From: a bacterium
GTDB taxonomy: Bacteria > CSSED10-310 > JAJRTK01
DNA length: 32,475 bases
Reading direction: 5' to 3'
Assembly (NCBI GenBank): GCA_024278345.1
Contig: JAJRTK010000204.1
Span: 1 to 32,475, forward strand
This document shows positions 305-28,755 of the stretch, one piece after another; position 1 is the first letter of the stretch, and each line of letters starts with the position of its first letter. The notes under the pieces were generated by a model. The model worked only from the letters and a program-made list of their open reading frames with translations. It was not told the origin of the DNA and did not search any database. A program made the position numbers and the translations under genes.

Positions 305-3016
305 CTACTGGGAGGGAAGCGGTTGGAACCGCACGCATAGACGGGACTCACTGTCAGGCGTGCAATAGCGGGCGCCGAATCCGTCGAAGAAGAAATCGCG
401 AGGCCAGTTGGAGGGTCTTAGGGGAAAGGCATCGGCCTTGTAGACCTGGAAAAGGCCTGCGTCCCAGTCGATTCGGAGCAAGGGGTTATCGCCGCCCGTC
501 AGGGTTGGGATGGGATCGTCGTCACCTCCGGCGGCGATGTCCCTTTCCCATAGCTCGATCCGGGCATCGCTCACCAAGCTCATTCCCGACGTGGGCTGAT
601 CGCTCAACATGTTCCAGTCTCCGGCGCAATCGTCATCGAGCCAGGCTACGTGGGGAATGCCTGTGCAACTCCCACTCTTGAACGTGGTGGAGGCTCCGTC
701 CCGGGTGAGCTGGATCCGAACGTAGGGATCGGCCTTTCCGCAATAGAGGCAGTCATCGACATTGGTGGCGTCGGCCGATGTCACCCGGACCTCCATTCGG
801 TGGCTCCAGGCCCGATGGTACTTGGGAGCGGCTCGGAGAGGAACTAGCTCCAGGCTGGAACGGACCGGCATGTGATCCGAATAGCGGTCGATGGTGCCCC
901 ACCAGGCCGCATTGGTTTCATCCCACCAGGGGCCGGGCCAGAGAGGCTGCCAGACTGAGCCGCCATTGCCGCGAGCCATCAGGTAGGCGGCGGCCCCCTG
1001 GTTGAGAAAGTCGGTGGGCAGGGGAGGCCGCACGAAGATATGGTCGATCCTGGAACGGGGTGACAAACCATCCTTCCCCACCGATGTGCCCAATCCATTG
1101 TCGGGATCGAGCCAGACGGTGAGATCGGGGATCTCCTCCAGCCCCAGGTCCCCGTGATCGATGTCCCATCCAAAAAGATCGGGCCAGGGGCTGATACCAT
1201 CCTGAACCTCCTGAAGCCAAGGGTCGATGGTGGAAGCCCCAAGTCCCAGGTAGTGGAGGAGCCACCCGTACTCGTTGGTGGACTCGCCATTCATGGGATC
1301 GGTCCAATTCAGGTGGACCCCATTGATATTGAAATCGCCTGCGATGATGGCGGGGCGATCCCGGCGGTCACCCAGGACCGCGTCGATGAAATCTCCCATC
1401 TCCTGGAGCTGGGATTGGCGGAGTTCCGTCGTGCTCAGATCGGGGCAGAGGCCGGGATCGCGGAACTGCTGGGCGAACTCTTGGGATCCGGAGATTTCGG
1501 CGATCCCGTCCAGGAATCCGCTGCTGAGATCGCAGAGTGCGTTTCCGCCTGCCTGGAGGTGGGTGGTGAAGACGTCGAGGTAGTGATCCGCGCTGGGCGG
1601 CAACGGGCAGCCGGATGGCGGCGGGAAATCCCCGGCATACTGATCGTAAAGGGCCTGGCACTGATCCGAAAGATCGGTGGGCGGGTTGATCCAAAGGCGA
1701 ACCCAAAGGGTCCCCTTGGGTTTCAGGCAATCTTCGCCCTTGCACTGGGAATAGACGCGGAAATCGCCATCGATCTTCGGCCAGTGGGAGAGGACGAAGA
1801 GGCCGCCCTGCCCTTCGTTGGGGTAGTTGGGAGGAAAACTCAGATTGCGCCCGAGCTTTTCTCTTAGGGGCGGGTCGTCATAATCGAACTCCACGGGACC
1901 ATAAAGCTGGAAGGGCGGCAGCCCTTCCTGGGCCCTGGCGGCGTTGGCGGCGTCTCGGATCGCTTTGACCTTTGCCGTATCCCAGCCCTCCTGCAAGACG
2001 ACGACATCGTAGGAAACCAGGAAGCGCCCGATATCCGCATCATCCACCAGGGAGTCATCAAATCCTTCCTTGTCCACGACGTGCATCGCCGCCGTAAACC
2101 GTTTGACATTCCAAGTGGCAAACTGGATGGGGATCCCTTTGGGCGGACCAAAAAAGAGGGTCTGGAAAAAACGGCGGTCATTGGCTCGAACCGGCGCGGG
2201 GGAAGCATCAGCCGACGCGGCCAATTCCTCTGGCATGGCGGCCTGGGCGATGTCGCCGGCTTCCACCTGAGCCACGGCCAATCCCAGCCCCGGTGTAGAA
2301 CCGCTCGTTCCCAGGGATGGAAGAGGGAGAGCCAGCTCGGCATCGAACTCGAAAACGCCTTCTCGAACCGGGCGAACCGGTCCTAAACGTGCCTCCCAGG
2401 AGGGTTCGTCGGAGGGTGGCGCAACCGCCTGCCAAGCACCCGTGGCATCGGGAATCAAGAGTTGGGTGGAACCGGTTTCGAGGTCCAGAGCGTAGGCGCG
2501 ATCCTCCGATGTGGGAAGCCTGCTCCCCGACCGGAAGCGATCATGGTCCAAGTAGACGATAAGGGTGGGGAGAGAGGCACCGGATCCCACGGCCGTCGTG
2601 CGGGCAGCCTTGACTCTGACCTCCAGGGTCGAAAGCTCTTCGTCGATAGCAATCAGGACGCTCCCCGAAGCCGGTTCCTGAAGAGCGAGGTTGAGGAAGG
2701 GGAACTCCACACTGCCAAAGGCCTCGCCAGGGTCGAGGGTCCCGTCCGTCTGGCCGGGGAGCCCTACTTGGGCGCGAGGCGGGACGGTCCAACAGAAGGA
2801 AGGCCCGACGCCGGCATTACAGAGATCCGGCCCCGGAGCCGTGAAGGAGGCTGCCCCAGAAATGGAAACCAGGCAGGGGATAAACCACAAGAAACTCGCA
2901 GTAGCGACAACCCACGGGGAAAGCCTCATGGGACGGCGGGGCACGGAAGCAAACCCCTTTGGCCCGGATTTTTTGGGGAGGCTGACGTCCTGGAGACAGA
3001 AGTTTCGGGCTTGCAT
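305..3016 (-). CDS. Secreted endonuclease/exonuclease/phosphatase-family protein with C-terminal C2-like domain
   Basis: Predicted exported metal-dependent phosphodiesterase (nuclease or sphingomyelinase-like). Residues 30-56 form a signal peptide. Residues 57-280 are a beta-rich region of unknown type. Residues 297-725 carry the EEP fold signatures: TWN (N303), LQE (E343), GDFN (D561, N563), RIDH (D658, H659) and a terminal SDH (H715). Residues 740-895 look like a C2/calcium-binding module (KADPYVRIQL, ARIELWERD). The family core is 250-300 residues, so insertions and extra domains are large. The ATG at 3016 has GGAG 9 nt upstream; an ATG at 2929 would give a compact signal peptide but has no ribosome site. 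It stands alone, divergent from hisA. DNA, RNA or lipid substrate cannot be decided from sequence. Confidence 0.85.
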   Translation of the reverse strand: MQARNFCLQDVSLPKKSGPKGFASVPRRPMRLSPWVVATASFLWFIPCLVSISGAASFTAPGPDLCNAGVGPSFCWTVPPRAQVGLPGQTDGTLDPGEAFGSVEFPFLNLALQEPASGSVLIAIDEELSTLEVRVKAARTTAVGSGASLPTLIVYLDHDRFRSGSRLPTSEDRAYALDLETGSTQLLIPDATGAWQAVAPPSDEPSWEARLGPVRPVREGVFEFDAELALPLPSLGTSGSTPGLGLAVAQVEAGDIAQAAMPEELAASADASPAPVRANDRRFFQTLFFGPPKGIPIQFATWNVKRFTAAMHVVDKEGFDDSLVDDADIGRFLVSYDVVVLQEGWDTAKVKAIRDAANAARAQEGLPPFQLYGPVEFDYDDPPLREKLGRNLSFPPNYPNEGQGGLFVLSHWPKIDGDFRVYSQCKGEDCLKPKGTLWVRLWINPPTDLSDQCQALYDQYAGDFPPPSGCPLPPSADHYLDVFTTHLQAGGNALCDLSSGFLDGIAEISGSQEFAQQFRDPGLCPDLSTTELRQSQLQEMGDFIDAVLGDRRDRPAIIAGDFNINGVHLNWTDPMNGESTNEYGWLLHYLGLGASTIDPWLQEVQDGISPWPDLFGWDIDHGDLGLEEIPDLTVWLDPDNGLGTSVGKDGLSPRSRIDHIFVRPPLPTDFLNQGAAAYLMARGNGGSVWQPLWPGPWWDETNAAWWGTIDRYSDHMPVRSSLELVPLRAAPKYHRAWSHRMEVRVTSADATNVDDCLYCGKADPYVRIQLTRDGASTTFKSGSCTGIPHVAWLDDDCAGDWNMLSDQPTSGMSLVSDARIELWERDIAAGGDDDPIPTLTGGDNPLLRIDWDAGLFQVYKADAFPLRPSNWPRDFFFDGFGARYCTPDSESRLCVRFQPLPSQ

Positions 3017-5205: not shown

Positions 5206-6222
5206 TCACTCCTCACGGACGCCGATACAGATTTTCCCAAAGTGGGCCCCCGACCGGAGGCGCTCGAAGGCATCCCTGGCGGCGGAAAAGGGGAAGAGGC
5301 CATCGATAATCGGTCGCAGCTTGCCCGCCTCCACGGCGCGGTTCATCCCTTGAAAACTCTGGCGATGTCCCACCAGGATGCCCTGGATGCGCAGCTTGTT
5401 CATCAGAATTCGCGTCAGGTCAAGCTCCCTGGCCGCACCGGCCAGGATGCCGATGACGGCGATCTGCCCGCCAAGGCGAACCGCCCGAAGCGATTCCCCA
5501 AAAGTTCCAGCGCCGCCGACCTCCACAACGTGGTCCACGCCGCCGCCGGAAAGGCGGCGTACCTCTTTTCCCCATTTGGGGGTAGCCATGTAGTTGATAC
5601 AGAAATCGGCGCCCAGAGCACGCGCTCGTTCCAGCTTTTCATCACTGGAGGAAATGATGAACACCTCAGCGGAGAAAAGCTTGGCAAACTGAAGAGCAAA
5701 GATGGAAACGCCGCCGGTTCCTTGGATAAGAACAGTGTCACCAGCCTTGAGGCCTCCCGACTCCACCAAGGCATTCCAGGCAGTGAGGGCGGCGCAGGGA
5801 AGAGTCGATGCCTCGGCGTCGCTCAGGTGGTCCGGAACCCGGACAACACCACTCTCCCCCAAGACAACACGCTGCGCCAGCATACCATCGATTGGACCAC
5901 CCAAAGTATCTCGAACGGCGGCAACACTAGGACGCCCCGCCTGCCAGCCTTGGAAAAAGGTCCCGGCAACGCGCTCCCCAACGGCAAAGCCCCCAACGCC
6001 TGCACCCACGGCCACGATCTTGCCCACGCCATCGGAAAGCGGAATCAGCGGCAAAGGCTGGCGCGGATTGTACCGCCCATCCACCATGAGCAGATCCCGA
6101 TAGTTGAGGGAAGTCGAGGAGACTTGAACCAAAAGCTGCCCCGGGCCGGGCTCTGGCTCCGGGCGCTCGACCCGTTCGAGATTCTCGAGGCCGAAGGAAT
6201 TGCGGATTTCATAGGCTTTCAT
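5206..6222 (-). CDS. MDR-superfamily NAD(P)-dependent alcohol dehydrogenase / quinone oxidoreductase-like
   Basis: Medium-chain dehydrogenase/reductase of 338 residues. The N-terminal GroES-like part has LNYRDLLMVDGRY and SDGVGKIVAVGAGV; the cofactor domain has VLIQGTGGVSIFALQFAK (Rossmann glycine loop around 168-171) and HVVEVGGAGTF. The catalytic-zinc Cys of classical alcohol dehydrogenases is replaced in the N-terminal domain and the four-Cys structural zinc lobe is absent, so it is of the zinc-independent type. Start ATG 6222 has GGAG about 10 nt upstream; a longer frame to 6303 lacks one. It is divergent from the protease gene and convergent with the preceding hypothetical gene. Substrate unknown. 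Confidence 0.85.
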   Translation of the reverse strand: MKAYEIRNSFGLENLERVERPEPEPGPGQLLVQVSSTSLNYRDLLMVDGRYNPRQPLPLIPLSDGVGKIVAVGAGVGGFAVGERVAGTFFQGWQAGRPSVAAVRDTLGGPIDGMLAQRVVLGESGVVRVPDHLSDAEASTLPCAALTAWNALVESGGLKAGDTVLIQGTGGVSIFALQFAKLFSAEVFIISSSDEKLERARALGADFCINYMATPKWGKEVRRLSGGGVDHVVEVGGAGTFGESLRAVRLGGQIAVIGILAGAARELDLTRILMNKLRIQGILVGHRQSFQGMNRAVEAGKLRPIIDGLFPFSAARDAFERLRSGAHFGKICIGVREE

Positions 6223-6349
6223 CGCGTGGGATCTCCAAGAAGAAACGTGCCGGTCTGGTCTGGGCAAGACGATTCGTGTCTGAAACAATACTCTCTTGTG
6301 CATTCCAAATCGAAGAGCAAGGCAGCATCAACCCCCGAAGGAGTAAGAG

Positions 6350-8476
6350 ATGTCCCATTGTATTCATCGCAACGGATTCCGGATCCAAGCCGACCGGCGC
6401 CTCTTCGTGTGCCTGGCGGCGATCCTGGGCCTGGCCTTGGCCGGCTGTGGAGGCGACGACGATGGCGGAGGTGGCGGTGGCAATGAAACCCGCGTCAACG
6501 ACCCGCTTTTTTCCAGCCAGTGGCATCTGGAAAACACCGGCCAGAGCGGCGGCTTCAAAGGCGCCGACGCGAAGCTGCCCGGCGCTTGGGGCCAGGGCGT
6601 GACGGGGGCCGGCGTGGTGATCGCGGTGATCGACGACGGCGTGGCTCTCGACCACGAAGAGTTCCAGGGAAAGATCGTGTTGATCCCGGGGTCGGACCTC
6701 AATTCCGGTGACGATGACCCCTCCGCGATGGCCACATTCGGCGATTTCCACGGAACTTCCGTGGCAGGCGTTGCTGCCGCCGCGGCGAACAACAACCTGG
6801 GCGGTGCGGGCGCCGCGTATGGGGCACAGGTCATGCCCATCCGCTTTCTTGGCGGCAACCGGCCGCTGACACTCAGCGCGTCGGCAATTGCCTTCCGGCG
6901 GGCCATGGAGGGCGGCGCCGCAATCCTCTCCAATAGTTGGGGCCCGCCTGACGGAGATGGAGATGTCCCGCTTCCAGACGCCGTTCGAGCCGCTCTAGAC
7001 GACGTGACGGACAATGGCCGTGATGGATTGGGCTGCGTGGTCCTTTTTGCCGCGGGGAATGGCGGAGAATTGGTGACGGGAGATGGCTTCGCCGCCTATG
7101 AGCGCGTCATTGCCGTCGGGGCCAGCACGGACCAGGACAAGCGATCCGCCTACAGCGACTACGGCCCGGAGCTGGATGTCGTCGCGCCGAGTAGCGGCGG
7201 GAGTAGCGGTATCTGGACCACCGATCTGCCCGGCATGCCCGGATACAACATAGGTGCGCTCCCCGCGGGCACCTACTTGGCTGGAGTCGGCTCGTTCCAG
7301 GGGACACCCGAATACCAGCTCCAAATCGGCCCAGGTGGCCCAGAGGTCGCGGAGGTGGAAGGAAACAACTTCGTTGCCACCGCCCAAAACGTGGCCTTCC
7401 CGGCCACGATAAAAGGAATAGCCGATCCTCCAAACGCCCCGGGGAATGTCATCTATTCAGCGGGCGCCTTCGTGGTTTTCGCGGATCTCTTCCGCTTCCA
7501 GACCACGACAACCCAGATCGTCGATCTGACCCTGAGCGCGCCTGGCGCGGGGGAGAGTGACATCGATCTGGCCCTCACCGATGCTGGCGGCAACTTCCTA
7601 TCCTTGAGCCTGGGAGAAGGGAATCTGGAATTTATTTCGGCGGAGATGGACAACGGAAGCTACACGAGTAATTTTGGCGGAACCTCCTCGGCGACACCTC
7701 TTGCTGCTGGCATCGCGGCGCTCGTGCTCCAGGCAAATCCGAATCTAACGTGGCAACAGGTGATGGGTATTCTGGAAGAAACAGCCGACAAAATCGGCTC
7801 AGGTTACGACAGCAACGGCCACAGTAATTTTATGGGCTTCGGGAAAGTCAATGCCGAGGAAGCTGTCCGGCGAGCCAAGAGCGGCAGCACCATCAGACCA
7901 GTCTCCTCCAAGAATCTCCACCGGTCATGGCCTCATGCCGACAAGCCCATGGGAATGGGGCTCTACTGGTATTCCGGAGGCGCCGCGCACGAGCTTTCGT
8001 GGGAACCTGCTTCCGCTTACGTCAGAAACCCTCGTCACTCCGCCGGAATCCGAACCCTCGCCAAACTCAGGCATCGTGCCTCGAAAAAGGTCGATCCTCT
8101 TTCCCTCCTGGGAGCCCAGAGAACCCCCCTCCAGGCGGCCTCCGACCTCGAGGATTACGGCCGTGCCCTCCGGAAAGTCGCCGCCACCCGGGGCGACCTC
8201 GAAGTGGCCCCGGCCCTCTCCACTCCCGGCGGGCTTCCGCTCTGGTTGGGAAGCGATCTCATCGCCGGCCTAAAACCCGATGCAAACCTCGAACAAGCGG
8301 AAGCACTCTTCCACCGGATGGACCTCGAAATCGTCCAAGAGCTCACCACAAGCGAGTTCATTCTCCGCTCTTCGGAGTCGGGAATCCCCGTCCTGCAAAT
8401 GGCCAATAGACTCTACGAGAGCGGGCTCTTCCGCTACGCACACCCCGACTTCGAGATTCCGCTGGTGGTCAAGTAA
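6350..8476 (+). CDS. Lipoprotein S8 (subtilisin-family) serine protease with inserted PPC-like region and C-terminal prodomain
   Basis: 708 residues; ATG preceded by AAGGAG. Signal peptide 17-32 with lipobox LAGC (Cys33), then a Gly/Asp-rich linker. Catalytic domain from about residue 48 (NDPLFSSQWHLENTGQ) with Asp95 in AVIDDG, His134 in FHGTSVAG, oxyanion Asn237 in FAAGNGG and Ser446 in GTSSATP. Residues about 295-435, between Asn237 and Ser446, resemble a pre-peptidase C-terminal (PPC) domain. Residues about 532-708 (YWYSGG..., SDLIAGLKPD, MANRLYESGLFRYAHPDF) match the fervidolysin-type prodomain that normally comes before the catalytic domain. The order is therefore permuted. Predicted outer-membrane or periplasmic peptidase. 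The triad is intact, so activity is plausible. Confidence 0.92.
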   Translation: MSHCIHRNGFRIQADRRLFVCLAAILGLALAGCGGDDDGGGGGGNETRVNDPLFSSQWHLENTGQSGGFKGADAKLPGAWGQGVTGAGVVIAVIDDGVALDHEEFQGKIVLIPGSDLNSGDDDPSAMATFGDFHGTSVAGVAAAAANNNLGGAGAAYGAQVMPIRFLGGNRPLTLSASAIAFRRAMEGGAAILSNSWGPPDGDGDVPLPDAVRAALDDVTDNGRDGLGCVVLFAAGNGGELVTGDGFAAYERVIAVGASTDQDKRSAYSDYGPELDVVAPSSGGSSGIWTTDLPGMPGYNIGALPAGTYLAGVGSFQGTPEYQLQIGPGGPEVAEVEGNNFVATAQNVAFPATIKGIADPPNAPGNVIYSAGAFVVFADLFRFQTTTTQIVDLTLSAPGAGESDIDLALTDAGGNFLSLSLGEGNLEFISAEMDNGSYTSNFGGTSSATPLAAGIAALVLQANPNLTWQQVMGILEETADKIGSGYDSNGHSNFMGFGKVNAEEAVRRAKSGSTIRPVSSKNLHRSWPHADKPMGMGLYWYSGGAAHELSWEPASAYVRNPRHSAGIRTLAKLRHRASKKVDPLSLLGAQRTPLQAASDLEDYGRALRKVAATRGDLEVAPALSTPGGLPLWLGSDLIAGLKPDANLEQAEALFHRMDLEIVQELTTSEFILRSSESGIPVLQMANRLYESGLFRYAHPDFEIPLVVK

Positions 8477-8673: not shown

Positions 8674-10386
8674 CTAGCCGCGCCCCTTGTTGCGGCACCG
8701 GGCGTAACACTTCATGAGCCCCGCCGTGGACGAATCGTGGTGGCTGAGATCCATCTCTTCGCCTAGGGCCAGGGTCTTCTGCTCCGCCAAAATCCGCCCA
8801 GCCAGCACCTTTCCAAGCTCTACGCCCCACTGGTCGAAGCTGTTGATCCGCCAGACCACGCCCTGGACGAAGATCTTCATCTCGTAGAGAGCCGTGAGCA
8901 TTCCCAGCGCATAGGGTGTGAGCTTCTGGAGCAAAATCGTCGTCGTGGGTCGGTTTCCCTCGAAAAACTTGTGGGGAAGGAGTTCCTCGATCCTCTCCGG
9001 CGATAGCCCCGCTTCCTCTAGATCCAACCGGGCCTCCTCCGGCGTCTTCCCCCGCATGAGGGCCTCCGGCTGGGCGAAAAAGTTCGCCATGAGCTTCTCA
9101 TGGTGATCGCCCAAGGGCCGGTGGCTTTCGATGCAGCCGATGAAGTCGGCCGGCACCAGCTTCGTCCCCTGGTGAAGGAGCTGGAAAAAGGCGTGCTGGC
9201 CGTTGGTGCCGGGCTCGCCCCAAACAATAGGACCGGTCTGGTAATCCACCCGCCGTCCATCGCGGTCTACCGACTTGCCGTTGGACTCCATGTCCCCTTG
9301 CTGAAAATAGGCTGCAAAGCGATGGAGATACTGATCGTAAGGCAAAATGGCGTGACTTTCGGCGCCAAAGAAATTATTGTACCAAATGCCCAACATCCCC
9401 AGTAGAACCGGCAGGTTCCGCCTAAGGGGAGCCGTCCGAAAATGGCGGTCCAGGACATGGGCTCCCCGGAGAAGCTCCTCGAACCGCTCGAACCCCACGT
9501 CGCAGCAGATGGGAAGCCCGATGGCCGACCAGGACGAATAGCGCCCCCCCACCCAGTCCCAGAACTCAAACATGTTCTCCGGATCGATCCCAAACTTGGT
9601 CACCAGATCCCGATTCGTGGAAAGCGCCACGAAATGCCGCGCAACGGCCTTTTCGTCCCGCAGCGGATCCAGGAGCCACGCCCGAGCCGTCCTGGCATTG
9701 GTCATGGTCTCCTGCGTCGTGAAGCTCTTGGAGGCGATGATGAACAGCGTCTCCTCCGGATCGAGATCCCGCGTCTTCTCATAAAAATCGGAGCCGTCAA
9801 TGTTCGACACGAACCGCACCCGTGGCCCCTCGTCGGCGTACGGTCGCAAAGCCTCCGTCATCATCACCGGTCCAAGATCCGAACCGCCAATCCCGATGTT
9901 GACCACGGTCCGGATCGGCCGCCCGGTATGACCGCGCCATTCCCCCGAACGAATTGCACCGGAAAAACGCCGCATTTTCTCCAGCACCGCCCGCACCTTC
10001 GGCATGACGTCTTCCCCGTCCACGAAAACGGGGTCGTCGGAAGTATCGCGCAGCGCCACGTGGAGTACCGCCCGACCTTCGGTCCAATTGATCTTCCGCC
10101 CCGAAAACATCGCCTCCGCCGCCTCGCGAACCCCCGCCGCTTCCGCAAGCTCCACGAAAAGATCCACCGTCCGCGCCGTGATGCGGTTCTTCGACAGGTC
10201 CACAAGCATCCCCTCCAGCTCGAAAGAGAGCTCGTCAAACCGCCCGGGATCCTCCCGAAACAGCTCCCGCAAATGCAGGCTCTTGACCGAATCGAAATGA
10301 GCAGCCAATCTCTTCCAAGCCACCGTCTCCGTCAAACGGGCTCCCGCCTGAATTTCACGATCGATTCCCGACTGATAAAGGGCCAT
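8674..10386 (-). CDS. pgi: Glucose-6-phosphate isomerase
   Basis: Interconverts glucose-6-phosphate and fructose-6-phosphate in glycolysis and gluconeogenesis. 570 residues, near the usual 550 of the long bacterial/eukaryotic type. Visible: [11 protein letters not shown] sugar-phosphate loop (163-173), signature 1 [14 protein letters not shown] (279-292), [10 protein letters not shown] with catalytic Glu366, [14 protein letters not shown] with His398, and signature 2 with [12 protein letters not shown] near the C-terminus. Start ATG has AAGGAGG at good spacing. It is transcribed alone, convergent with the protease gene and divergent from the transglutaminase-like gene. Confidence 0.97.
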
Positions 10387-11657: not shown

Positions 11658-12941
11658 CTAGTCGAACTGGAGTTCCATCTTTTCCGTCTCCTCCTGCTCG
11701 GGAGCGGGGTCGAAGCGCCCGGTATCGGGGTTGAAGCCGTGCTCCTGGAGCTTGAGGACGAAGTCCGTGGGGCGGGAAGCAGCTCGAATCGCCGAGTCGA
11801 AATCAATGACTCCCTTGACGAAGAGCTTTGTGAGGTGTTGGTCGAAAGTCTGCATTCCGTACTGGGGTCCGCCATCCTCGATGATGTCGAAGATGAGGTT
11901 GGTCTTGTCCGGATTCTTGATGTACTCGCGGATGGTCAAGCTTCCGATCATGACCTCCACGGCTGCGACGCGGCCTTTCCCGTCCTTCCTCCGAAGAAGG
12001 CGCTGGCTGATGACGGCCTGGATGTTCTCGGCGAGCTGAAGGCGCACCTGCTGCTGCATATTTCCCTCGAAAGTATCGAGGATGCGGTTGATGGTGCCCA
12101 CCGCGGACTGGGTGTGGAGAGTGGAAAAGACGAGGTGCCCGGTTTCCGCGGCCTGAAGGGCAACAGAGATGGTTTCCGCGTCCCGCATCTCGCCCACCAA
12201 GATGACGTCGGGATCTTGGCGGAGAGCGGCCCTGAGGGCGATGGAAAAGCTGTCGGTATCGGTCCAAACTTCGCGCTGCCGGATGACGGATTTTTTGTCC
12301 CGATGAAGGTATTCCACCGGATCTTCGATGGTGATGATGTGTTTGTCGAGATGCGTATTGATGTAGTCGATCATCGACGCCAACGTCGAGCTTTTGCCAC
12401 TTCCCGTGACGCCCGTGACCAGGACGAGACCCCGTTCGTGCTGGGCGACTTTCGTCAGGATTGGAGGAAGTCCAAGGTCTTGGATCGAAGGAATCTTGAC
12501 GGCGATCTTACGCATGACAAGCGCTGGCGTGTTGCGCTGAAAGAAAACGTTGACGCGAAAACGGGACACGCCGGCGATGCCGTAGGAAAAATCGTAGTCG
12601 TGAAGCCGGTTTTCCTTGATTTTCTGAGAGATCTCGGGATTGGGGATGATGGATCCGAGGATGGAATCGATTTCAGCGCGGCTCATCCGGCGGTCGCTGA
12701 CGCGACGTAAAGTCCCGTCGATGCGGACGATGGGAGGACAGCCCGTGGCTAGGTGAATATCGGAAATGCCCTCCTCAAGCTGGGCCAGCTTCCGAAGAAA
12801 GTCAATGATTTTGCTATTCTTTTTTGGCTGTTGCGGGTTCTCGCGATTCAAGGCAAGCCGTCCTGAGTTTGGGGTGCGGATAAGGGGAGAGGCGAATCCC
12901 GTGGAGAAATGAAGCGCATGGGCGCCCTGAGAAGGGTCCAC
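11658..12941 (-). CDS. PilT/PilU-family type IV pilus retraction ATPase (copy 1)
   Basis: Hexameric motor ATPase of the GspE/PilT class that drives pilus retraction at the inner membrane. 427 residues from a GTG at 12941. Visible: SDIHLATGCPPIVRIDG N-domain, Walker A GVTGSGKS (177-184), Asp box ITIEDPVE, Walker B DVILVGEMRD, His box TGHLVFSTLHT. There is a PilU-like acidic tail (EQEETEKMELQFD). The first 30-40 residues are not conserved; a TTG at 12851 preceded by AGGA would remove 30 of them and may be the true start. It follows copy 2 on the same strand after 234 nt. Other pilus genes are not in view. Confidence 0.9.
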   Translation of the reverse strand: MDPSQGAHALHFSTGFASPLIRTPNSGRLALNRENPQQPKKNSKIIDFLRKLAQLEEGISDIHLATGCPPIVRIDGTLRRVSDRRMSRAEIDSILGSIIPNPEISQKIKENRLHDYDFSYGIAGVSRFRVNVFFQRNTPALVMRKIAVKIPSIQDLGLPPILTKVAQHERGLVLVTGVTGSGKSSTLASMIDYINTHLDKHIITIEDPVEYLHRDKKSVIRQREVWTDTDSFSIALRAALRQDPDVILVGEMRDAETISVALQAAETGHLVFSTLHTQSAVGTINRILDTFEGNMQQQVRLQLAENIQAVISQRLLRRKDGKGRVAAVEVMIGSLTIREYIKNPDKTNLIFDIIEDGGPQYGMQTFDQHLTKLFVKGVIDFDSAIRAASRPTDFVLKLQEHGFNPDTGRFDPAPEQEETEKMELQFD

Positions 12942-13175: not shown

Positions 13176-14381
13176 TCACACATCGAAAAGGAATCCACCC
13201 ACATCTTCTTCCTCCTTGGGTTCTTCTTCCGCTTCCGGTTGCGGAGAGCTCGAGTTCATCTCCAGGTGACCGAGGTTCAGGTATTTAGTCGGCAGCGGGT
13301 AGCCGTCGGATTGGAGGCTCAAGATGAGGTCAGCCGGCTGGCTGGAGGCTGTCAATGCAGTGTCGAGATCAATGGAGCCGTCCACGAAGAGCTGCTTCAC
13401 GTGCTGGTCGAAGGACTGCATTCCGTAGAGATCGTTATCATTTTCAATGGCTTGGAGCAGGACATCTGTTTTTTCGACATTCCTGATGGCCTCGCGGACT
13501 CTACGGGTGCCGATCATGATTTCCACGGCGGGAATGCGACCAACGCCCCCGGCTCGAATGAGGAGGCGCTGGCAGATGATCGCCTCCAGGGTGTCGGCAA
13601 GTTGCATTCGGACCTGATGGTGCTGGTGCGGCGGAAACGAATCGACGATCCGGTTGATGGTGCCTGCCGCCGATTGGGTGTGAAGCGTGGAGAGCACTAA
13701 ATGGCCTGTCTCGGCGGCCTGGAGCGCGATCTCCATCGTTTCGGGGTCCCGCATCTCTCCCACGAGGATGAGATCCGGATCCTGGCGGAGGGCCGACTTC
13801 AGGGCGGAAGCGAAGGAGCCGGTGTCGCAGCCCACTTCCCGCTGCCGAATGACCGAGCGTCCATCTTGGTGCAGAAATTCGATGGGATCCTCGATAGTGA
13901 TGACATGTTTTTCTTGGGTCTGGTTGACATAATCGACCATGGAAGCCAAAGTCGAGCTCTTGCCACACCCCGTGATCCCCGTGACGATGACCAGGCCGCG
14001 CGGAGTCTGGGCAATCTTCCCCAAAACGGGTGGAAGCCCAAGCTCGTCGAAGCTTGGGATCGTGGCCTGGATCTTGCGCATGGCGATGGCCGGTGTATTC
14101 CGTTGGTGGTACACGTTGACCCGAAAGCGCGCGAAACCCTGTATCCCAAAAGAGAAATCGTATTCGTAGATCTTCCCTTCCCGGAACCCCTCTCGGGCTG
14201 TTTCCGAAGGGAGAATCGCATCGATGAGGGCTTCAACTTCGCTCTGGCCAAGCCTGCGGTGACCCACCCGTTTGAGGACGCCGCTGCTGCGGATGACCGG
14301 CTGGCAACCACATGCCAGATGGATGTCCGAAATGCTTTCTTCAAGCTCGGCGATGGTACGGATGAAATCGATGGGGTTCAT
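13176..14381 (-). CDS. PilT/PilU-family type IV pilus retraction ATPase (copy 2)
   Basis: Second motor ATPase, 401 residues, ATG at 14381. Visible: SDIHLACGCQPVIRSSG, Walker A GITGCGKS (135-142), Asp box ITIEDPIE (161-168), Walker B DLILVGEMRD (203-212), His box TGHLVLSTLHT (225-235), and an acidic C-terminal tail rich in Glu and Pro. It is clearly a paralogue of copy 1, with the same motif order, so the pair probably arose by tandem duplication. One may be the main PilT and the other PilU-like; sequence alone does not decide. Possible own promoter at 14482-14509. Confidence 0.92.
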   Translation of the reverse strand: MNPIDFIRTIAELEESISDIHLACGCQPVIRSSGVLKRVGHRRLGQSEVEALIDAILPSETAREGFREGKIYEYDFSFGIQGFARFRVNVYHQRNTPAIAMRKIQATIPSFDELGLPPVLGKIAQTPRGLVIVTGITGCGKSSTLASMVDYVNQTQEKHVITIEDPIEFLHQDGRSVIRQREVGCDTGSFASALKSALRQDPDLILVGEMRDPETMEIALQAAETGHLVLSTLHTQSAAGTINRIVDSFPPHQHHQVRMQLADTLEAIICQRLLIRAGGVGRIPAVEIMIGTRRVREAIRNVEKTDVLLQAIENDNDLYGMQSFDQHVKQLFVDGSIDLDTALTASSQPADLILSLQSDGYPLPTKYLNLGHLEMNSSSPQPEAEEEPKEEEDVGGFLFDV

Positions 14382-18918: not shown

Positions 18919-19239
18919 GGCTATCGCACTCCTCAGTGATGAGATGGTTTGCCCGAATCCCAGTGGTCCCTGTGAAACTCTGACAATAGGATAACATTCT
19001 ATTCCAAAAGATGTTTGCTGGGAAGCCAAAACAGGTCAAGGAAGCTTGCCTGTCTGGAGGTGAGCTCTGGGATCTTGCCCAAAAATTGCAGGCCAAGGAA
19101 GCTTGCCTGTCTGGATGTGAGCTCTGGGATCTTGCCCAAAGATTGGATCAGGTACCTTGGTTAGGTTAGTATAGGAAATACCTGAATCACGATCCTTTTG
19201 AAGGGCGATGGCCATTCTCTTTGGCACTGGAGTCCTCGT
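18919..19239. other. Divergent intergenic region between lipoprotein and kinase genes
   Basis: About 320 nt with a 57-bp tandem duplication (listed separately). Near 19148-19185 the arms TCAGGTA and TACCTGA flank a TTAGTATAG sequence that could serve as a -10 for the kinase gene, with TTGGAT (19144-19149) as a weak -35. No small gene is credible here. Confidence 0.5.
19037..19150. repeat. 57-bp direct tandem repeat (two copies)
   Basis: Copies at 19037-19093 and 19094-19150. The first 47-52 nt are identical except for two substitutions; the final bases diverge. Each copy contains AAGCTT and GAGCTC palindromes. It sits in the divergent promoter region, so it may duplicate a regulator site. 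The period is a multiple of three, but the long minus-strand frame through it is antisense to the kinase and not credible. Confidence 0.85.
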
Positions 19240-22200
19240 ATGCGCCGACCAAAGGCTCCCCACCCGCAATACCCGCCACAGGTAGGTGCAGGCTCGCCTG
19301 GACAAGTGGATCGCCAATCCAAGTCGTCTGACCCCGAAAGCGCTCCCCTGCCCAAGAAGAACAGGGACTCGGAAACCCGATGGACGCCTGCGGGCCCAAT
19401 TGAGATTCCTCCCGGTACAGAGACACAGCCCCTGGATCTGGAACCACACCGCCAGCCGAAAACAGACTTTTCCTCCTCGGAACCAGGACCGATCGACTCG
19501 GAGAAAGGCGAAGACTCCGGGCCTTACGAATTCGAGCCTCGCGTTGGCTCCGGACCATACGACTCCGAGACACGCATCGGATGGTCGAATCCTACCGATC
19601 CATCTCATCCCGCTCAGAAACACCTGGCGACGGAGAGTTGGCTGGAAGAGCTTCTCCTTCCCCCGCGTAGAAGCAATCAACACATTGAGCTCCCGACCTT
19701 TGTTCCGGGGGAGATCCTGGCTGGTCGCTATAAGATCGTGCGCCTCATAGCCCGCGGCGGCATGGGGGAAGTCTACGAAGCCGAAGACATGGAACTTCTG
19801 GAGCGGATAGCCCTCAAGACCATCCGTCCCGCCATTGCAGGCCGCAAACGGACGCGGGAACGCCTCAAACGCGAAATCCACCTGGCCAGGCGAGTGATTC
19901 ACCCCAATGTTTGTCGGATTCTGGAGTTCTCCCACCACCGCCTGCCCCCCATTGGAGGCAACAAAGAGGGTCAAGACTTCCTTTTCCTGACGATGGAGCT
20001 TCTTGAAGGAGAAACATTGTGGCGATGGTTGAAGCGTACGGGCCGTTTGAGCCTCCCCGAAGCTCTTCCTTTGATCGAACAGATCGCCAGGGGCTTGGAA
20101 GCTGCCCACGAGGTTGGCGTTGTCCATTGCGACCTGAAGAGTGAAAATATTCTTCTCATCAACAGCGGGAACGTGCCCGCGCCTCAAGACGAAGAACAGC
20201 CTCAAGCCCTCTCCGCCGATTCCGCCATGCTGCGGGCGGTGATCATGGATTTCGGAGTGGCGCAAACCAGTGCAAACGACGACAGTTTTGCCGATCTCCT
20301 GGGGTCGAGCGATGTCATGGGAACTCCGCCTTCCATGGCGCCGGAACAGATGGAAGGCGAACCGATCACGGCCGCCGTGGACATCTATGCCCTGGGAATC
20401 GTCATGTTCGAGATGGCTACGGGCCGACATCCCTTCGCCAAGCACTCCTCGAACCTCCGGGAGCTTCGGAAGCAAAAAGATTCTCCACCCTCCGCGCAAG
20501 AGATTGTCCCGGATCTGGCCCTCTTGTGGGATAGCGTCATCCAACGCTGCCTCGCTCCCAACCCCCTCCATCGCTATTCCACGGTTCAAGAGGTTCTGGA
20601 GACCCTGAAAGCGACTCGTACGCCGGACCGTGACCAAAAGAATGAGAAGCCCGGAAGGCGGCATGTAACTCCTTGGAGCGCGACCGCCGCCTTGTTCCTC
20701 CTGCTCACGACTAGTCTGTTTTGGGGCTGGTTTCAAAACAGGGGCACCGAAAGGGAGAGCGTTACACTGGTTGCCCGCTCGGCCAATGGCCGGCAGGCGG
20801 CGGCGATACTCGGATTCCGTGACCTTTCGGGACACTCGGACAATGCATGGCTTTCCACCGCACTCTCAGAGATGCTTGGCACCGAGCTTGGAGTGGGAAA
20901 CACGCTCCGAATCATCAGCGGCGAACAGGTGGCGCAGGTCAAGAGGCAGCTCGGCCTGGCCAAGGCCGAGGATTTTTCCAGAGAAAGCCTTGATCGGCTC
21001 CACCGGAACCTTGGCGCGGAATGGCTCGTCCTGGGTTCGTATCTCGTCCTCGATTCTTCATTGACGGGCGGCGGCAAGGAAAACGCGAAGCTCAGATTTG
21101 ATCTTCGCGTTCAGGAAATGCCCGAAAACGAGACCGTCGTGCGCCTCGCCAACTCCGGTAGCGTCGCCGATCTTCTTGGGCTCATCGAAAATGTCGGCAG
21201 CGAGCTCAGACATGAGCTCGGAGTGAAAGAACCACCTCGGGAAGATCGGGAAACGGTTCGTGCGTTGCAGCCCCGCAAGCCCGAAGCGCGCCGGCTTTAT
21301 GCCGAGGGACTCTCTAGCCTCCGCTCCCTGGATGCCCTCGGGGCTCGCAGACTTCTGGAAAAGGTCGTGAAGATCGACCCGGGTTTTCCTCTTGCCCATT
21401 CGGCGCTGGCGGAAGCCTGGTCATTCCTGGGATACGATAAAAAGGCAGTGAATGCGGCAAGGCGGGCCTTCGAGCTCTCGGACGGTCTGGCCAGGAAGGA
21501 GAAACTGTTCGTCGAAGGCCGCTACCATGAGATGGCGCGGAATTGGGACGCGGCCACCAAGAGCTACGGAATGCTGTTTGACTTTTTCCCCGATGAAATC
21601 GACTACGGCCTGCACTTGGCGGCAGCTCAAACAGCAGCGGGCCAGGGGGCCGAAGCCCTCGAGACGATCGCCGCGCTGCGGAGGTCCCAGGCCGGCACGG
21701 CGGATGACCTGCGTTTCGATTTTGCCGAAGCCGAAGCGGCCTCGGCTCTCTCTGATTTCAAGCGGCAGCTCGAGGCCATCGACAAAGCCACACGGCGAGC
21801 CCGGGAATCGGGCGCCGAGATCGCCGTTGCTCGCGCCAAGCTCTTGGAGTACTGGGCACGGAGAAACCTCGGGCAGCTCGATGAAGCCAAAGAGGCTGCT
21901 GCCGAGGCGAGGCGGAGCTTCGAAAAAGTCGGCGACCGAGGAGGTCTCGCTCGGGCCCTCAATGCCCTCGCCACCCTGCTTTCGGATAGCGGTCGGCTAG
22001 ATCAAGCCAAAGAGACGGAACAGCGTGCCCTGAGAATATTTCGAGAGCTTGGCGATCAACGGCGAATCACCTGGTCCTTGAACAATCTTGCCAATGCCCT
22101 ACGCATTCAAGGATCCCTTTCCAAGGCGGAAGAACTCTATGAAGAAACCTTGCGGATTTGTCGTGAGATCGGGGATCGTACCGGGGAAGGCCGCGCTCTC

Positions 22201-23061
22201 AAGAACTTGGGGATCGTCTACCGCATGCAGGGAAAGATGGCCCAAGCCATGGAGACGACAAAACTCTCTGAAAATACCCGCCGGGCGGTGGGGGATGGGC
22301 GCGGCATCGCCCAGGCACGGATGAATCTTGCCGTCATCCTTTCGGAACAAGGGGAGCTGGACGGGGCTGAGGCGCTGTTCACGGAGTCCCTGGAGCTGGC
22401 CCAACGGATCAGCTATCAATACACTGTGGCCGATTCGCTCTTCGGCCTGGCCCACATCGCGATGGTTCGAGGCCGACTGCCGCAAGCCCGGAAGATGCAC
22501 CAGCAGGTCCTTGATCTCCGGAGCCGTCTGGGGGACCGCTGGAATACGGCTCGCAGTCAGATTTCCCTTGCCGTGCTGGCACTGGCTGAAGATCGGCCCG
22601 AGGTGGCCGGGTTCCTGGCCGGGGCCGCATCTGAGGCATTGGCTCCCGTCGGTGCGGCTCTTCGGATGGAAGCATTGAGAACTTTGTGCCTCTCGCTCCT
22701 CAACAGGGGCCGCTTGGAAGAAGCTAGAGCAGCGCTGGGGCAGGCTTCCGCCCTGCTGACCAGTACCGAGCAAAAAAACTTTCGCTGGGGATTCGCGTTG
22801 ACCAAGGCAACACTGCAAGCAGCATCCGAAGGCGCGACCGGTCGGCATCAAGCGATTCGCGATCTGGAAAAGCTCCTTGGGAGCTGGCCTGAGAAAACCT
22901 ATTACGGCCTCCGTCTCGAAGCGCGGCTGGAGCTTGCCCGCTTGAAGCTCACGGTGGAAACCGAGGGAGCGCGACACGAAATCGAAATGGTGGCGGTCGA
23001 GGCTGGTGAAAAGGGTTTTAGCCTCCTGGCAAAACGCGCCGGCAAGCTCTCGGCTCCCTAG
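19240..23061 (+). CDS. Membrane Ser/Thr protein kinase with TolB/FlgO-like domain and TPR repeats
   Basis: 1273 residues. Pro/Ser-rich disordered N-terminus (1-155); kinase domain 162-458 with ARGGMGEVYEAED glycine loop, Lys193, HCDLKSEN catalytic loop (Asp298, Asn303), DFG 337-339 and SMAPEQ 366-370. HCD in place of HRD makes it a non-RD kinase; a roughly 20-residue insert precedes DFG. One transmembrane helix (482-498). Residues 518-660 (AAILGFRDLSGHSDNAWLS, EMLGTELG, GAEWLVLGSYLVLDSS) resemble the TolB/FlgO-like extracytoplasmic domain of acidobacterial kinases. About 680-1270 is a TPR array. Catalytic residues are intact. ATG 19240 has GGAG 7 nt upstream. Likely a sensor kinase. Confidence 0.9.
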   Translation: MRRPKAPHPQYPPQVGAGSPGQVDRQSKSSDPESAPLPKKNRDSETRWTPAGPIEIPPGTETQPLDLEPHRQPKTDFSSSEPGPIDSEKGEDSGPYEFEPRVGSGPYDSETRIGWSNPTDPSHPAQKHLATESWLEELLLPPRRSNQHIELPTFVPGEILAGRYKIVRLIARGGMGEVYEAEDMELLERIALKTIRPAIAGRKRTRERLKREIHLARRVIHPNVCRILEFSHHRLPPIGGNKEGQDFLFLTMELLEGETLWRWLKRTGRLSLPEALPLIEQIARGLEAAHEVGVVHCDLKSENILLINSGNVPAPQDEEQPQALSADSAMLRAVIMDFGVAQTSANDDSFADLLGSSDVMGTPPSMAPEQMEGEPITAAVDIYALGIVMFEMATGRHPFAKHSSNLRELRKQKDSPPSAQEIVPDLALLWDSVIQRCLAPNPLHRYSTVQEVLETLKATRTPDRDQKNEKPGRRHVTPWSATAALFLLLTTSLFWGWFQNRGTERESVTLVARSANGRQAAAILGFRDLSGHSDNAWLSTALSEMLGTELGVGNTLRIISGEQVAQVKRQLGLAKAEDFSRESLDRLHRNLGAEWLVLGSYLVLDSSLTGGGKENAKLRFDLRVQEMPENETVVRLANSGSVADLLGLIENVGSELRHELGVKEPPREDRETVRALQPRKPEARRLYAEGLSSLRSLDALGARRLLEKVVKIDPGFPLAHSALAEAWSFLGYDKKAVNAARRAFELSDGLARKEKLFVEGRYHEMARNWDAATKSYGMLFDFFPDEIDYGLHLAAAQTAAGQGAEALETIAALRRSQAGTADDLRFDFAEAEAASALSDFKRQLEAIDKATRRARESGAEIAVARAKLLEYWARRNLGQLDEAKEAAAEARRSFEKVGDRGGLARALNALATLLSDSGRLDQAKETEQRALRIFRELGDQRRITWSLNNLANALRIQGSLSKAEELYEETLRICREIGDRTGEGRALKNLGIVYRMQGKMAQAMETTKLSENTRRAVGDGRGIAQARMNLAVILSEQGELDGAEALFTESLELAQRISYQYTVADSLFGLAHIAMVRGRLPQARKMHQQVLDLRSRLGDRWNTARSQISLAVLALAEDRPEVAGFLAGAASEALAPVGAALRMEALRTLCLSLLNRGRLEEARAALGQASALLTSTEQKNFRWGFALTKATLQAASEGATGRHQAIRDLEKLLGSWPEKTYYGLRLEARLELARLKLTVETEGARHEIEMVAVEAGEKGFSLLAKRAGKLSAP

Positions 23062-24194: not shown

Positions 24195-26072
24195 GTGTAC
24201 CAACTGCGTATTCTTCGCCCAATAGAGCTTGCTCGAACGATCAAGCTCGACGCTTCCACCATAACCATTGGGACGGACGCCTCCAATTCGATTTCGCTGC
24301 CAGGCGGAAACGCGACGAAAGTGTCGCGAATTCACGCTTTGCTCGACATTGATGAAAACGGGGTTCACACCGTCGATCTTAAAAGCACCAATGGGACTTC
24401 CGTGGAGCGAGTGCGTCTGGAAGCCTATTCCCCCCACACCTTGCGGCCCGGAGACATCCTCTATTTTGGAAACGTTGCCGCCACCTTGGAGACCTGCCGG
24501 GAAAGCGACAGCGATGTGGAGGAATCCCTCACAGAGGAAATGGAAACGGTCGAGGTCACCCGGATCTACCAGCAAGACGCGGCCCTGCGCCGCCAGGAAG
24601 AGTTCAGGAAGTTCCTTCAGGACTTACGGAAAAAAGGTGTTGAAGAAGAGAAGGTTCTGGACCATGCGTTGCTTGAGCTCATGCGAAGGCTCGGCGCCCA
24701 GCGCGGAGTTTTGCTCTTTCAAGAAGAAAAATGGCTGGCGATTAGGCCTGACCATGCCTGGCCGACCCTCAGATTCGAGGCCTTCGCGAATCTCTCTCAT
24801 CTTGTTGAAAAAGAAAATGTAATCTTCGCAAGTCATTCCTCCCTGCTTCCCCTACCCAGTCACGGGGCACAAACGCCGACTGCTAGCGCCCTTGTGGTGC
24901 TCAAGCGCAATCCGGAAGATCGGGTCAGGGGCATCTTCTATCTCGAGGCTTCCACGGAGGATGGACGTCAGACCCTTGCGAGAAACCTGGAGATCGTGAA
25001 GCCGCTCGGAGTTCTTCTCACGGAAGAGCTCCTGGGCCAGGCATCCACACGGCGCCGCCTCACGCCCACGCTTCGGAAGCGAGCCTCTCAGGTTCTGCTT
25101 TGGGCAAGCGAGGAGATGGAAAAGGTCGTCGAAACGGCAATTCGGTATGCCAAGGCACCTGGTACCGTCTTCTTGGAGGGCGAAACAGGAACCGGCAAAG
25201 AAAAGTTGGCGGAGCTCATTCACAAGTTTTCCCATCGAGCAGAGGGCCCCTTCACTGCCGTGAATTGCGCAGCCTTCACTCCATCCCTCTTGGAAGATGA
25301 ACTCTTTGGCCATAAGGTTGGGGCCTTCAGCGACGCAACCGCCCCACGACAAGGGGCCTTCGAGCTGGCTCACGGCGGAACTCTGCTCTTGGATGAGATC
25401 GGCGACATGACGATGACCGCGCAAAGCAAACTTCTCAGGATTTTGGAAGAACGGGTCGTCCATCGCCTTGGTGGTGGTCCCCCGATTCCCATCGATATCC
25501 GGATCATTGTGGCCACTCACCACAACATCCAAGAATGTATCCAGCGGGAAAGATTCCGAGACGACCTCTACTATCGGCTTCATGGCCTTCCTCTACGAAT
25601 TCCTCCGCTTCGCCACCGACCACGAGACATCCTTCCTCTTTTCGACTATTTCCGTGACTCCCTTCAAAACATGCCACACACCAGGCGACTCCGCTTGACG
25701 GATAAAGCCCAGGATCTCCTCCTTTCCTACCCCTGGCCGGGCAATGTCCGCGAGCTCAAATCCGAAGTGATGAGATTGCTCACGCTTTTAGATGGCTCCC
25801 TGGTGCGCGAGGAAGACCTCAACGATGAAATCCGCTTCAATCTCGAAAGGGCCACACCATTATACGACGTTGACGGCAAACGGGAGCTCTTCCGATTCAA
25901 GCAGTCCCTCGTGGCCAAGGCCATCTCCCAAGCCAACGGAAACCGGGAGGAAGCAGCCAGGCACTTGAGGCTGCCCCGGACAACCTTCTTCAATTGGCAA
26001 AAGGCGACAAATCTCCAACGCTGGAAGCCCGGCCAGCCCCTTCCAGAACTACCCGCCGTTCAGGATCCGTGA
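24195..26072 (+). CDS. FHA-GAF-AAA+-Fis HTH regulator (sigma-54 activator-like, degenerate GAFTGA)
   Basis: 625 residues. FHA domain 5-100 keeps VSRIH (43-47) and STNGT (64-68), but the usual Gly-Arg reads GT (26-27). GAF-like domain about 130-285. AAA+ domain 300-545: Walker A GETGTGK (329-335), Walker B TLLLDE (396-401), arginine fingers FRDDLYYRL (R455, R461), PWPGNVRELK. The sigma-54-contacting GAFTGA loop reads GAFSDA (376-381). Fis-type HTH at 583-602 (NREEAARHLRLPRTTFFNW). Start is GTG 24195; an ATG at 24193 is out of frame and the ribosome site is poor. It probably reads phospho-Thr signals from a Ser/Thr kinase and binds DNA; coupling to sigma-54 is doubtful. Confidence 0.9.
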   Translation: MYQLRILRPIELARTIKLDASTITIGTDASNSISLPGGNATKVSRIHALLDIDENGVHTVDLKSTNGTSVERVRLEAYSPHTLRPGDILYFGNVAATLETCRESDSDVEESLTEEMETVEVTRIYQQDAALRRQEEFRKFLQDLRKKGVEEEKVLDHALLELMRRLGAQRGVLLFQEEKWLAIRPDHAWPTLRFEAFANLSHLVEKENVIFASHSSLLPLPSHGAQTPTASALVVLKRNPEDRVRGIFYLEASTEDGRQTLARNLEIVKPLGVLLTEELLGQASTRRRLTPTLRKRASQVLLWASEEMEKVVETAIRYAKAPGTVFLEGETGTGKEKLAELIHKFSHRAEGPFTAVNCAAFTPSLLEDELFGHKVGAFSDATAPRQGAFELAHGGTLLLDEIGDMTMTAQSKLLRILEERVVHRLGGGPPIPIDIRIIVATHHNIQECIQRERFRDDLYYRLHGLPLRIPPLRHRPRDILPLFDYFRDSLQNMPHTRRLRLTDKAQDLLLSYPWPGNVRELKSEVMRLLTLLDGSLVREEDLNDEIRFNLERATPLYDVDGKRELFRFKQSLVAKAISQANGNREEAARHLRLPRTTFFNWQKATNLQRWKPGQPLPELPAVQDP

Positions 26073-28435: not shown

Positions 28436-28755
28436 TGGCCTGTTCTCCCCCGGCTCTCTCCCCGTTTTCTTTCTCCCCCGGGGGGCAAAGAACCGTCTAA
28501 AGTGTTGAATGAGCTCCCTCACATCGGCGATTCAAACCGGATATCTCATGGCCAATCCGCCGCCGCTGATCCATCGTTCCACGGGTCGTCCTTGGCGACG
28601 GGCCACCTTCGACTGTTCGGCAGGTGTGAGTTCACGATCCGTGATGAGAGTGTTGTGTCAAGATGGCTTTGTCTCCATTCTCTGGCACAAATCAGACCAC
28701 AATCCTTCCATCTTCTTTTGCTCCGACGCGAGGCGCCAGAATCGGGAATTTGGGT

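Follow-up and report, generated by a model that had tools for sequence, protein, structure and literature searches.

The P0001 locus

The sequence examined here (the window) is a stretch of 32,475 nucleotides, positions 1 to 32,475 on the forward strand of contig JAJRTK010000204.1, from the bacterial genome assembly GCA_024278345.1 (GTDB lineage CSSED10-310; JAJRTK01). The assembly is a draft of 6.06 Mb in 550 contigs that is 87.9% complete, and its phylum was represented by 8 genomes in the collection used. At 6350-8476 (+) the window carries an open reading frame (ORF) of 708 amino acids, designated P0001, which encodes a predicted lipoprotein protease of the subtilase family whose prodomain-like region lies behind the catalytic domain. 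An earlier note, made from the letters of this DNA alone, had described such an arrangement as looking like a real circular permutation of an intact enzyme. The frame was found to be unbroken, with similar G+C contents at the three codon positions in its catalytic (0.69/0.53/0.76) and C-terminal (0.68/0.47/0.72) portions, which indicates that a single frame is coding throughout. This uniformity ruled out a frame accident joining two genes.

P0001 is an S8 subtilase of the kexin-like branch and a predicted protease. It matched the Peptidase_S8 family (PF00082) with E=1.2e-46, and kexin was the best match of its catalytic domain in the PDB (2.3e-42). The residues of the Asp-His-Ser triad (D95, H134 and S446) and the oxyanion residue N237 occupied invariant columns in an alignment of 20 relatives, so that the triad is as intact as the earlier note had it; the GTSxAxP and HGTxxAG motifs of the family were present, as were the kexin-type motifs NDPLF..QWHL, SWGP and GDGF. 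The catalytic domain begins with NDPLFSSQWHL at N50, 17 residues past the lipobox Cys33 and directly after the lipobox and linker, as had been claimed, and ends at about residue 512. Upstream of N50, where S8 proteases usually carry a prodomain, there is nothing but the signal peptide and the Gly/Asp linker. A full-length AlphaFold model, for which the alignment rows covered the catalytic part only, had predicted local distance difference test (pLDDT) values of 91-96 over residues 451-510. In kexin the motif NYDGY carries an S1 Asp; this motif aligned with VTGDGF of P0001, which would fit a basic P1 residue as a possible specificity, but basic residues are only mildly enriched at the family junction (see below).

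The C-terminal segment is homologous to subtilase prodomains

Residues 537-708 matched no Pfam family, and the comparison set for this segment was therefore assembled from relatives. A search of the whole genome with the P0001 C-terminus recovered a stand-alone prodomain-like ORF, P0003 (1.3e-6), and blastp against a two-sequence database returned P0003 at 2e-7 and the prodomain of P0002, a paralogue encoded in the same genome, at 7e-5. A hidden Markov model (HMM) built from 31 canonical N-terminal prodomains, with the window sequence excluded, picked out P0001 residues 632-702 (E=5.3e-4 among 494 sequences) as the sole ORF of the window above noise. The same HMM scored the C-terminus at 18.5 bits, whereas the best of 2,000 shuffles reached 4.0. 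The prodomain-like part, placed from about position 7943 in the earlier note, is thus confirmed as such, with its start moved to about residue 537 (7958).

The fold pointed the same way. Two separate AlphaFold jobs were run, one on the full-length protein and one on residues 530-708 alone; in the latter (AlphaFold2, with 27 prodomains) the C-lobe reached a pLDDT of 87-97 and showed the element order b-a-b-b-a-b (model numbering: E101-112, H118-127, E130-137, E140-145, H152-161, E165-173). The four best Foldseek matches of this model in the PDB were all to the human PC1/3 prodomain (9fic/9fid/9fie). VIA-align added the prosegments of subtilisin E and BPN', EpiP and ORF2, the chaperone of the kexin-like protease ASP (1spb, 1scj, 3whi, 3t41, 3wqb); the match to ORF2 (3wqb) had Z 7.1 over 93 residues, with an aligned range covering both lobes. 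The prediction and search proposed in the earlier note therefore returned the element order of an I9 prodomain and prodomains as the top four hits, rather than a segment without any prodomain fold. In a PDB sequence search with prodomain profile A2 there were chance matches only, and 3wqb remained unmatched up to E=10.

Identity between P0001 and P0002 was 52.3% over the catalytic domain and 24.8% over the prodomain. Among 28 canonical pairs with catalytic identities of 50-55%, prodomain identity was 25.6 +/- 4.1%, and the P0001 prodomain has accordingly not diverged further than those in the canonical position. Taken by sequence and predicted fold, residues 537-708 are homologous to the N-terminal prodomain of the relatives in both lobes, with an I9-like fold. 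An unrelated domain replacing a lost prodomain was ruled out by the same sequence and fold matches.

Domain order and the join between the chain ends

Domain order was surveyed in ∼470 bacterial genomes using a prodomain profile, together with 80 loci from a scan of genome_contigs, with both domains scored per frame. The prodomain preceded the protease in 170 distinct relatives, and the reverse order occurred only in P0001; 8 distant viral_contigs loci, matched by catalytic-tail alignment, stand outside this count. The search for homologues with the same order, proposed in the earlier note, thus came back empty among the 170 distinct prodomain-protease proteins, leaving P0001 as a single case so far. 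A scan of plasmids gave no match, and a genome_contigs scan with P0001 alone as query gave no usable match. Within the papers searched, neither a circularly permuted subtilase nor a C-terminal subtilisin prodomain was found.

One surveyed protein, L214 (G446:C71:36500-44600), had neither simple order: its 1815 amino acids in one open frame are arranged as a tandem pro-cat-...-pro-cat. A tandem fusion of this type would be the kind of intermediate expected if a permutation proceeds through duplication, with the two outer halves lost afterwards.

In canonical relatives the spacing between the prodomain P[DN]F motif and the catalytic ND is mostly about ten residues, as in the P0002 junction, YPDF-LRPVALRASV-NDPMF. 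The two ends of P0001 (HPDF-EIPLVVK-stop at the C-terminus and TRV-NDPLF at the start of the catalytic domain) supply 7 + 3 = 10 residues, with none lost or repeated. The virtual junction of P0001, HPDFEIPLVVK|TRVNDPLFSSQWHL, and that of P0002, YPDFLRPVALR-ASVNDPMFKNQWHL, which needs no joining, both had 10 residues from PDF to NDP. This gapless join places the chain ends of P0001 where canonical subtilases cut themselves. The first self-cut of subtilisin and proteinase K lies 6-8 residues past a conserved Asp of the prodomain, and K708 of P0001 lies eight residues past D700; by this analogy, the stop codon of P0001 appears to make the chain end that autocleavage makes in its relatives.

An arrangement present in no relative, in a draft genome of 550 contigs, could also have come from a chimeric assembly that wrongly joined two genes within the contig. 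We consider this highly improbable, as reading frame and codon-position G+C content are kept across the junction, the tether is a sensible one, and the two ends match the family junction to the residue. Furthermore, P0002, the other canonical subfamily member in the genome (52% identical), is intact on another contig and so cannot be the source of the P0001 C-terminus.

Neither a prodomain remnant upstream of the P0001 start nor a remnant of a second protease downstream of its stop was found. This bears on a further alternative, that residues 537-708 are left over from a tandem duplication, or act on another molecule (e.g. as an inhibitor of P0002), with the protease itself needing no prodomain to fold. 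Tandem fusions do occur, as in L214, and stand-alone propeptide-like proteins serve as inhibitors (PMC6993865). We regard this alternative as improbable: besides the absence of either remnant, the segment keeps normal conservation and codon structure, and having no prodomain at all would make a subtilase of the P0001 type exceptional, with ASP named as the exception in a 2022 survey (PMC9549277). The coordinates of the P0001 features are collected in Table 1.

Table 1. Features of P0001 in window coordinates.
Feature	Position	Strand	Basis
Shine-Dalgarno-like AGGAG	6339..6343	+	sequence
Signal peptide with lipobox LAGC (ends LALAGC); predicted lipidated Cys33 (6446-6448)	6350..6448	+	lipobox by pattern only
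Low-complexity Gly/Asp linker, residues 34-49, ending TRV before NDPLF	6449..6496	+	sequence
Catalytic domain part 1, residues 50-302; D95 (6632-6634), H134 (6749-6751), N237	6497..7255	+	Pfam PF00082, kexin match, invariant columns
PPC-like beta domain insert, residues 303-433; C-terminal hairpin (LPAGTYLAGVGSFQGTPEYQLQI) ahead of the N-terminal part	7256..7648	+	PF04151 scores, alignment to PPC domains from the phylum
Catalytic domain part 2, residues 434-512; nucleophile S446 (7685-7687) in FGGTSSATP	7649..7885	+	invariant column; AlphaFold
Tether of 24 residues (513-536), catalytic domain to C-terminal prodomain	7886..7957	+	position between two homologous regions
Two-lobed C-terminal prodomain, residues 537-708 (YWYSGG ... 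LYESGLFRYAHPDF)	7958..8473	+	sequence and fold matches
I9-like C-lobe of C-terminal prodomain	residues about 630-702	+	sequence and fold matches
C-terminal tail EIPLVVK, residues 702-708; counterpart of the segment at the autoprocessing junction of canonical relatives (P0002 LRPVALR-ASVNDP)	8453..8473	+	junction alignment

Origin of the arrangement

The relatives of P0001 include P0002 (on contig C451), with 831 amino acids, in which NDPMFKNQWHL comes after a two-lobed N-terminal prodomain, and canonical proteins from Cyanobacteria, Planctomycetes, Bacteroidetes and Acidobacteria. These belong to the same catalytic subfamily and have the same two-lobed prodomain, but, unlike in P0001, it is N-terminal in all 170. 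P0002 also differs in having a DUF4384 tail and no PPC insert. P0003 (L009 23-1054, G000:C211) is a secreted protein of 344 amino acids with the same two-lobed segment and no protease, and is possibly an ORF2-like chaperone or inhibitor. Its gene adjoins genes for a DUF4384-like repeat protein and a caspase-like protein (GHGA...DSCYSGT), both recognized by eye. Two further loci (L136 and L198 in G104 and G454; two species of one genus) have this same two-lobed prodomain-like segment as the N-terminus of a non-protease of 548-549 amino acids with a C-terminal hydrophobic segment.

The existence of P0003 in the same genome bears on another history, in which an ancestor that had lost its N-terminal prodomain was served by a downstream chaperone gene of the ORF2 type and the two genes then merged; the resulting protein would work in the same way. 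Additional stand-alone prodomain-like ORFs are known from the survey (e.g. L140, L145, L202 and L215, of 109-130 amino acids with little beyond the C-lobe of the prodomain, which are candidates for free-standing bacterial inhibitors of subtilases), the structural matches include ORF2 with a range over both lobes, operons of the asp/orf2 type exist, and the shared GLYxYxxGxxHxLS pattern looks closest to P0003. Nevertheless, we judge such a fusion rather unlikely. The identity of the P0001 prodomain to that of P0002 is what the catalytic domains predict and slightly above its identity to P0003 (21.6%), the ends join without lost or duplicated residues, and the tether holds no remnant of a signal peptide.

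In trees of the prodomain and of the catalytic domain, the branches of the P0001 and P0003 prodomains were very long and unresolved, and the origin was not decided by them. The permuted order originally claimed stands, reversed relative to 170 proteins and with ends that join cleanly. Proportional divergence together with the clean join favour, from the sequence comparisons, duplication and trimming within one gene over fusion.

A PPC-like insert in the catalytic domain

The earlier note made no mention of an insert of ∼130 amino acids (residues 303-433) that interrupts the catalytic domain, with the residues following TTD on one side and the nucleophile loop on the other. Scored against PF04151, the insert reached 13.3 bits unaltered and 18.7 bits with its first hairpin moved to the C-terminal end; with three shuffled hairpins the PPC listing was gone. 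Both scores stay under the curated cut-off of 25.9 bits, and the insert is accordingly labelled only PPC-like and treated as a lead. It also aligned with PPC domains of the phylum. The insert is probably a PPC-like domain with its last hairpin placed first, which would make it a second circular permutation in P0001. Five relatives (L123, L130, L134, L159 and L174) carry an insert of 150-170 amino acids at another site of that domain, immediately behind the oxyanion AxGN.

Proposed folding and activation

The explanation we favour, and consider probable, is that P0001 is a genuine permutation, i.e. a kexin-like S8 lipoprotein with its whole prodomain moved to the back as a tethered chaperone-inhibitor. 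It builds on direct observations: the homology of the segment, the domain order, the intact triad, the open frame and the clean join onto the P0002 junction. The chaperone and inhibitor role of residues 537-708 is inferred from that of the family.

P0001 would be a surface lipoprotein that keeps its N-terminal lipid anchor throughout. The catalytic domain would be exported and anchored first, waiting in an unfolded or molten state for the tethered C-terminal prodomain, which, once made, would template its folding. The tail PDFEIPLVVK-COOH could then enter the S4-S1 cleft as a product-like inhibitor, with the product end supplied by the stop codon and no first self-cut required. Activation would come from a cut in the tether, or from release or degradation of the prodomain, by P0001 acting in trans or by another protease.

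Several points weigh against this explanation. It concerns a single gene in one draft genome, with the completeness and fragmentation given above. The full-length AlphaFold model left the insert and the prodomain at low confidence and did not show the tail docked in the cleft. A basic residue is only mildly enriched at the family junction (22% at -11; 60% versus 38% in a control stretch). The prodomain gave structural matches of moderate strength (Z about 7, E 8e-3), and its ferredoxin-like fold is a common one, so that the fold supports the prodomain assignment without proving it, and the sequence evidence carries that claim. For the complete proposal, comprising a permuted subtilase with the chaperone after the enzyme, an inhibitory end made by the stop codon, strictly post-translational folding and activation by a tether cut, plus a nested PPC-like permutation, we see the chances as evenly balanced.

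Intramolecular chaperones have their textbook example in the subtilases, for which an N-terminal prodomain and a first self-cut are assumed. If the proposal is true, a C-terminal prodomain would separate three features that otherwise always occur together: the order of synthesis, the covalent connection running through the active site, and autoprocessing. P0001 would then be a ready-made system for asking whether synthesis of the prodomain has to come first and whether folding depends on the first self-cut, and it suggests a zymogen design in which the inhibitor end is already finished.

Genomic surroundings

The Shine-Dalgarno-like AGGAG lies 6 nucleotides upstream of the P0001 ATG, and the gene is flanked on both sides by genes on the opposite strand, with no same-strand partner. 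Judged by eye from the translations, the neighbour at 5206-6303 is oxidoreductase-like and the one at 8674-10386 is glucose-6-phosphate-isomerase-like. Farther along the window, 11658-12941 (-) and 13176-14381 (-) are adjacent, same-strand frames that both have SDIHLA.GC.P near the start; the former contains the nucleotide-binding motif GVTGSGKSST, and by eye the pair resembles paralogous PilT-type ATPases. A frame for a Ser/Thr kinase with TPR repeats (19198-23061, +) is clustered with frames for an FHA-domain sigma54 activator (24195-26072, +) and a second Ser/Thr kinase (26183-28522, -).

Comparison with known systems

The closest parallel in working is the ASP/ORF2 pair of Aeromonas sobria (S8B; PDB 3hjr, 3wqb). 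The kexin-like ASP lacks a propeptide and relies for its folding and inhibition on ORF2, which is encoded just downstream and places its C-terminal Lys at the catalytic centre (PMC5638518); ASP was named in the 2022 survey as the only exception to the N-terminal subtilase prodomain (PMC9549277). Like ASP, P0001 lacks an N-terminal prodomain and has its predicted chaperone-inhibitor encoded 3'. Its chain ends in Lys, as does that of ORF2. ORF2 is a separate protein, whereas P0001 is one tethered chain of 708 amino acids, and ASP (E 1.2e-14) is more distant from the P0001 catalytic domain than kexin is. By analogy, P0001 looks like a single-chain version of ASP plus ORF2.

Propeptide-fold proteins that act away from the N-terminus of a protease include POIA1, the yeast proteinase B inhibitor, SUB1-ProM and TgMIC5, to which P0003 is similar; unlike the segment in P0001, these are not covalently joined to a protease. 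The prodomain of the clostridial germination protease CspB remains attached to the enzyme, obstructs the active site with its C-terminal residues and can fold the enzyme also in trans, and a jellyroll of ∼130 amino acids interrupts the protease domain (PMC3567191). P0001 shares with CspB a beta-domain of that size within the protease domain. It differs in that the CspB prodomain is N-terminal and self-cut and that the CspB insert is a jellyroll, not PPC-like. With CspB and ASP/ORF2 as solved systems, the mechanism proposed for P0001 is plausible.
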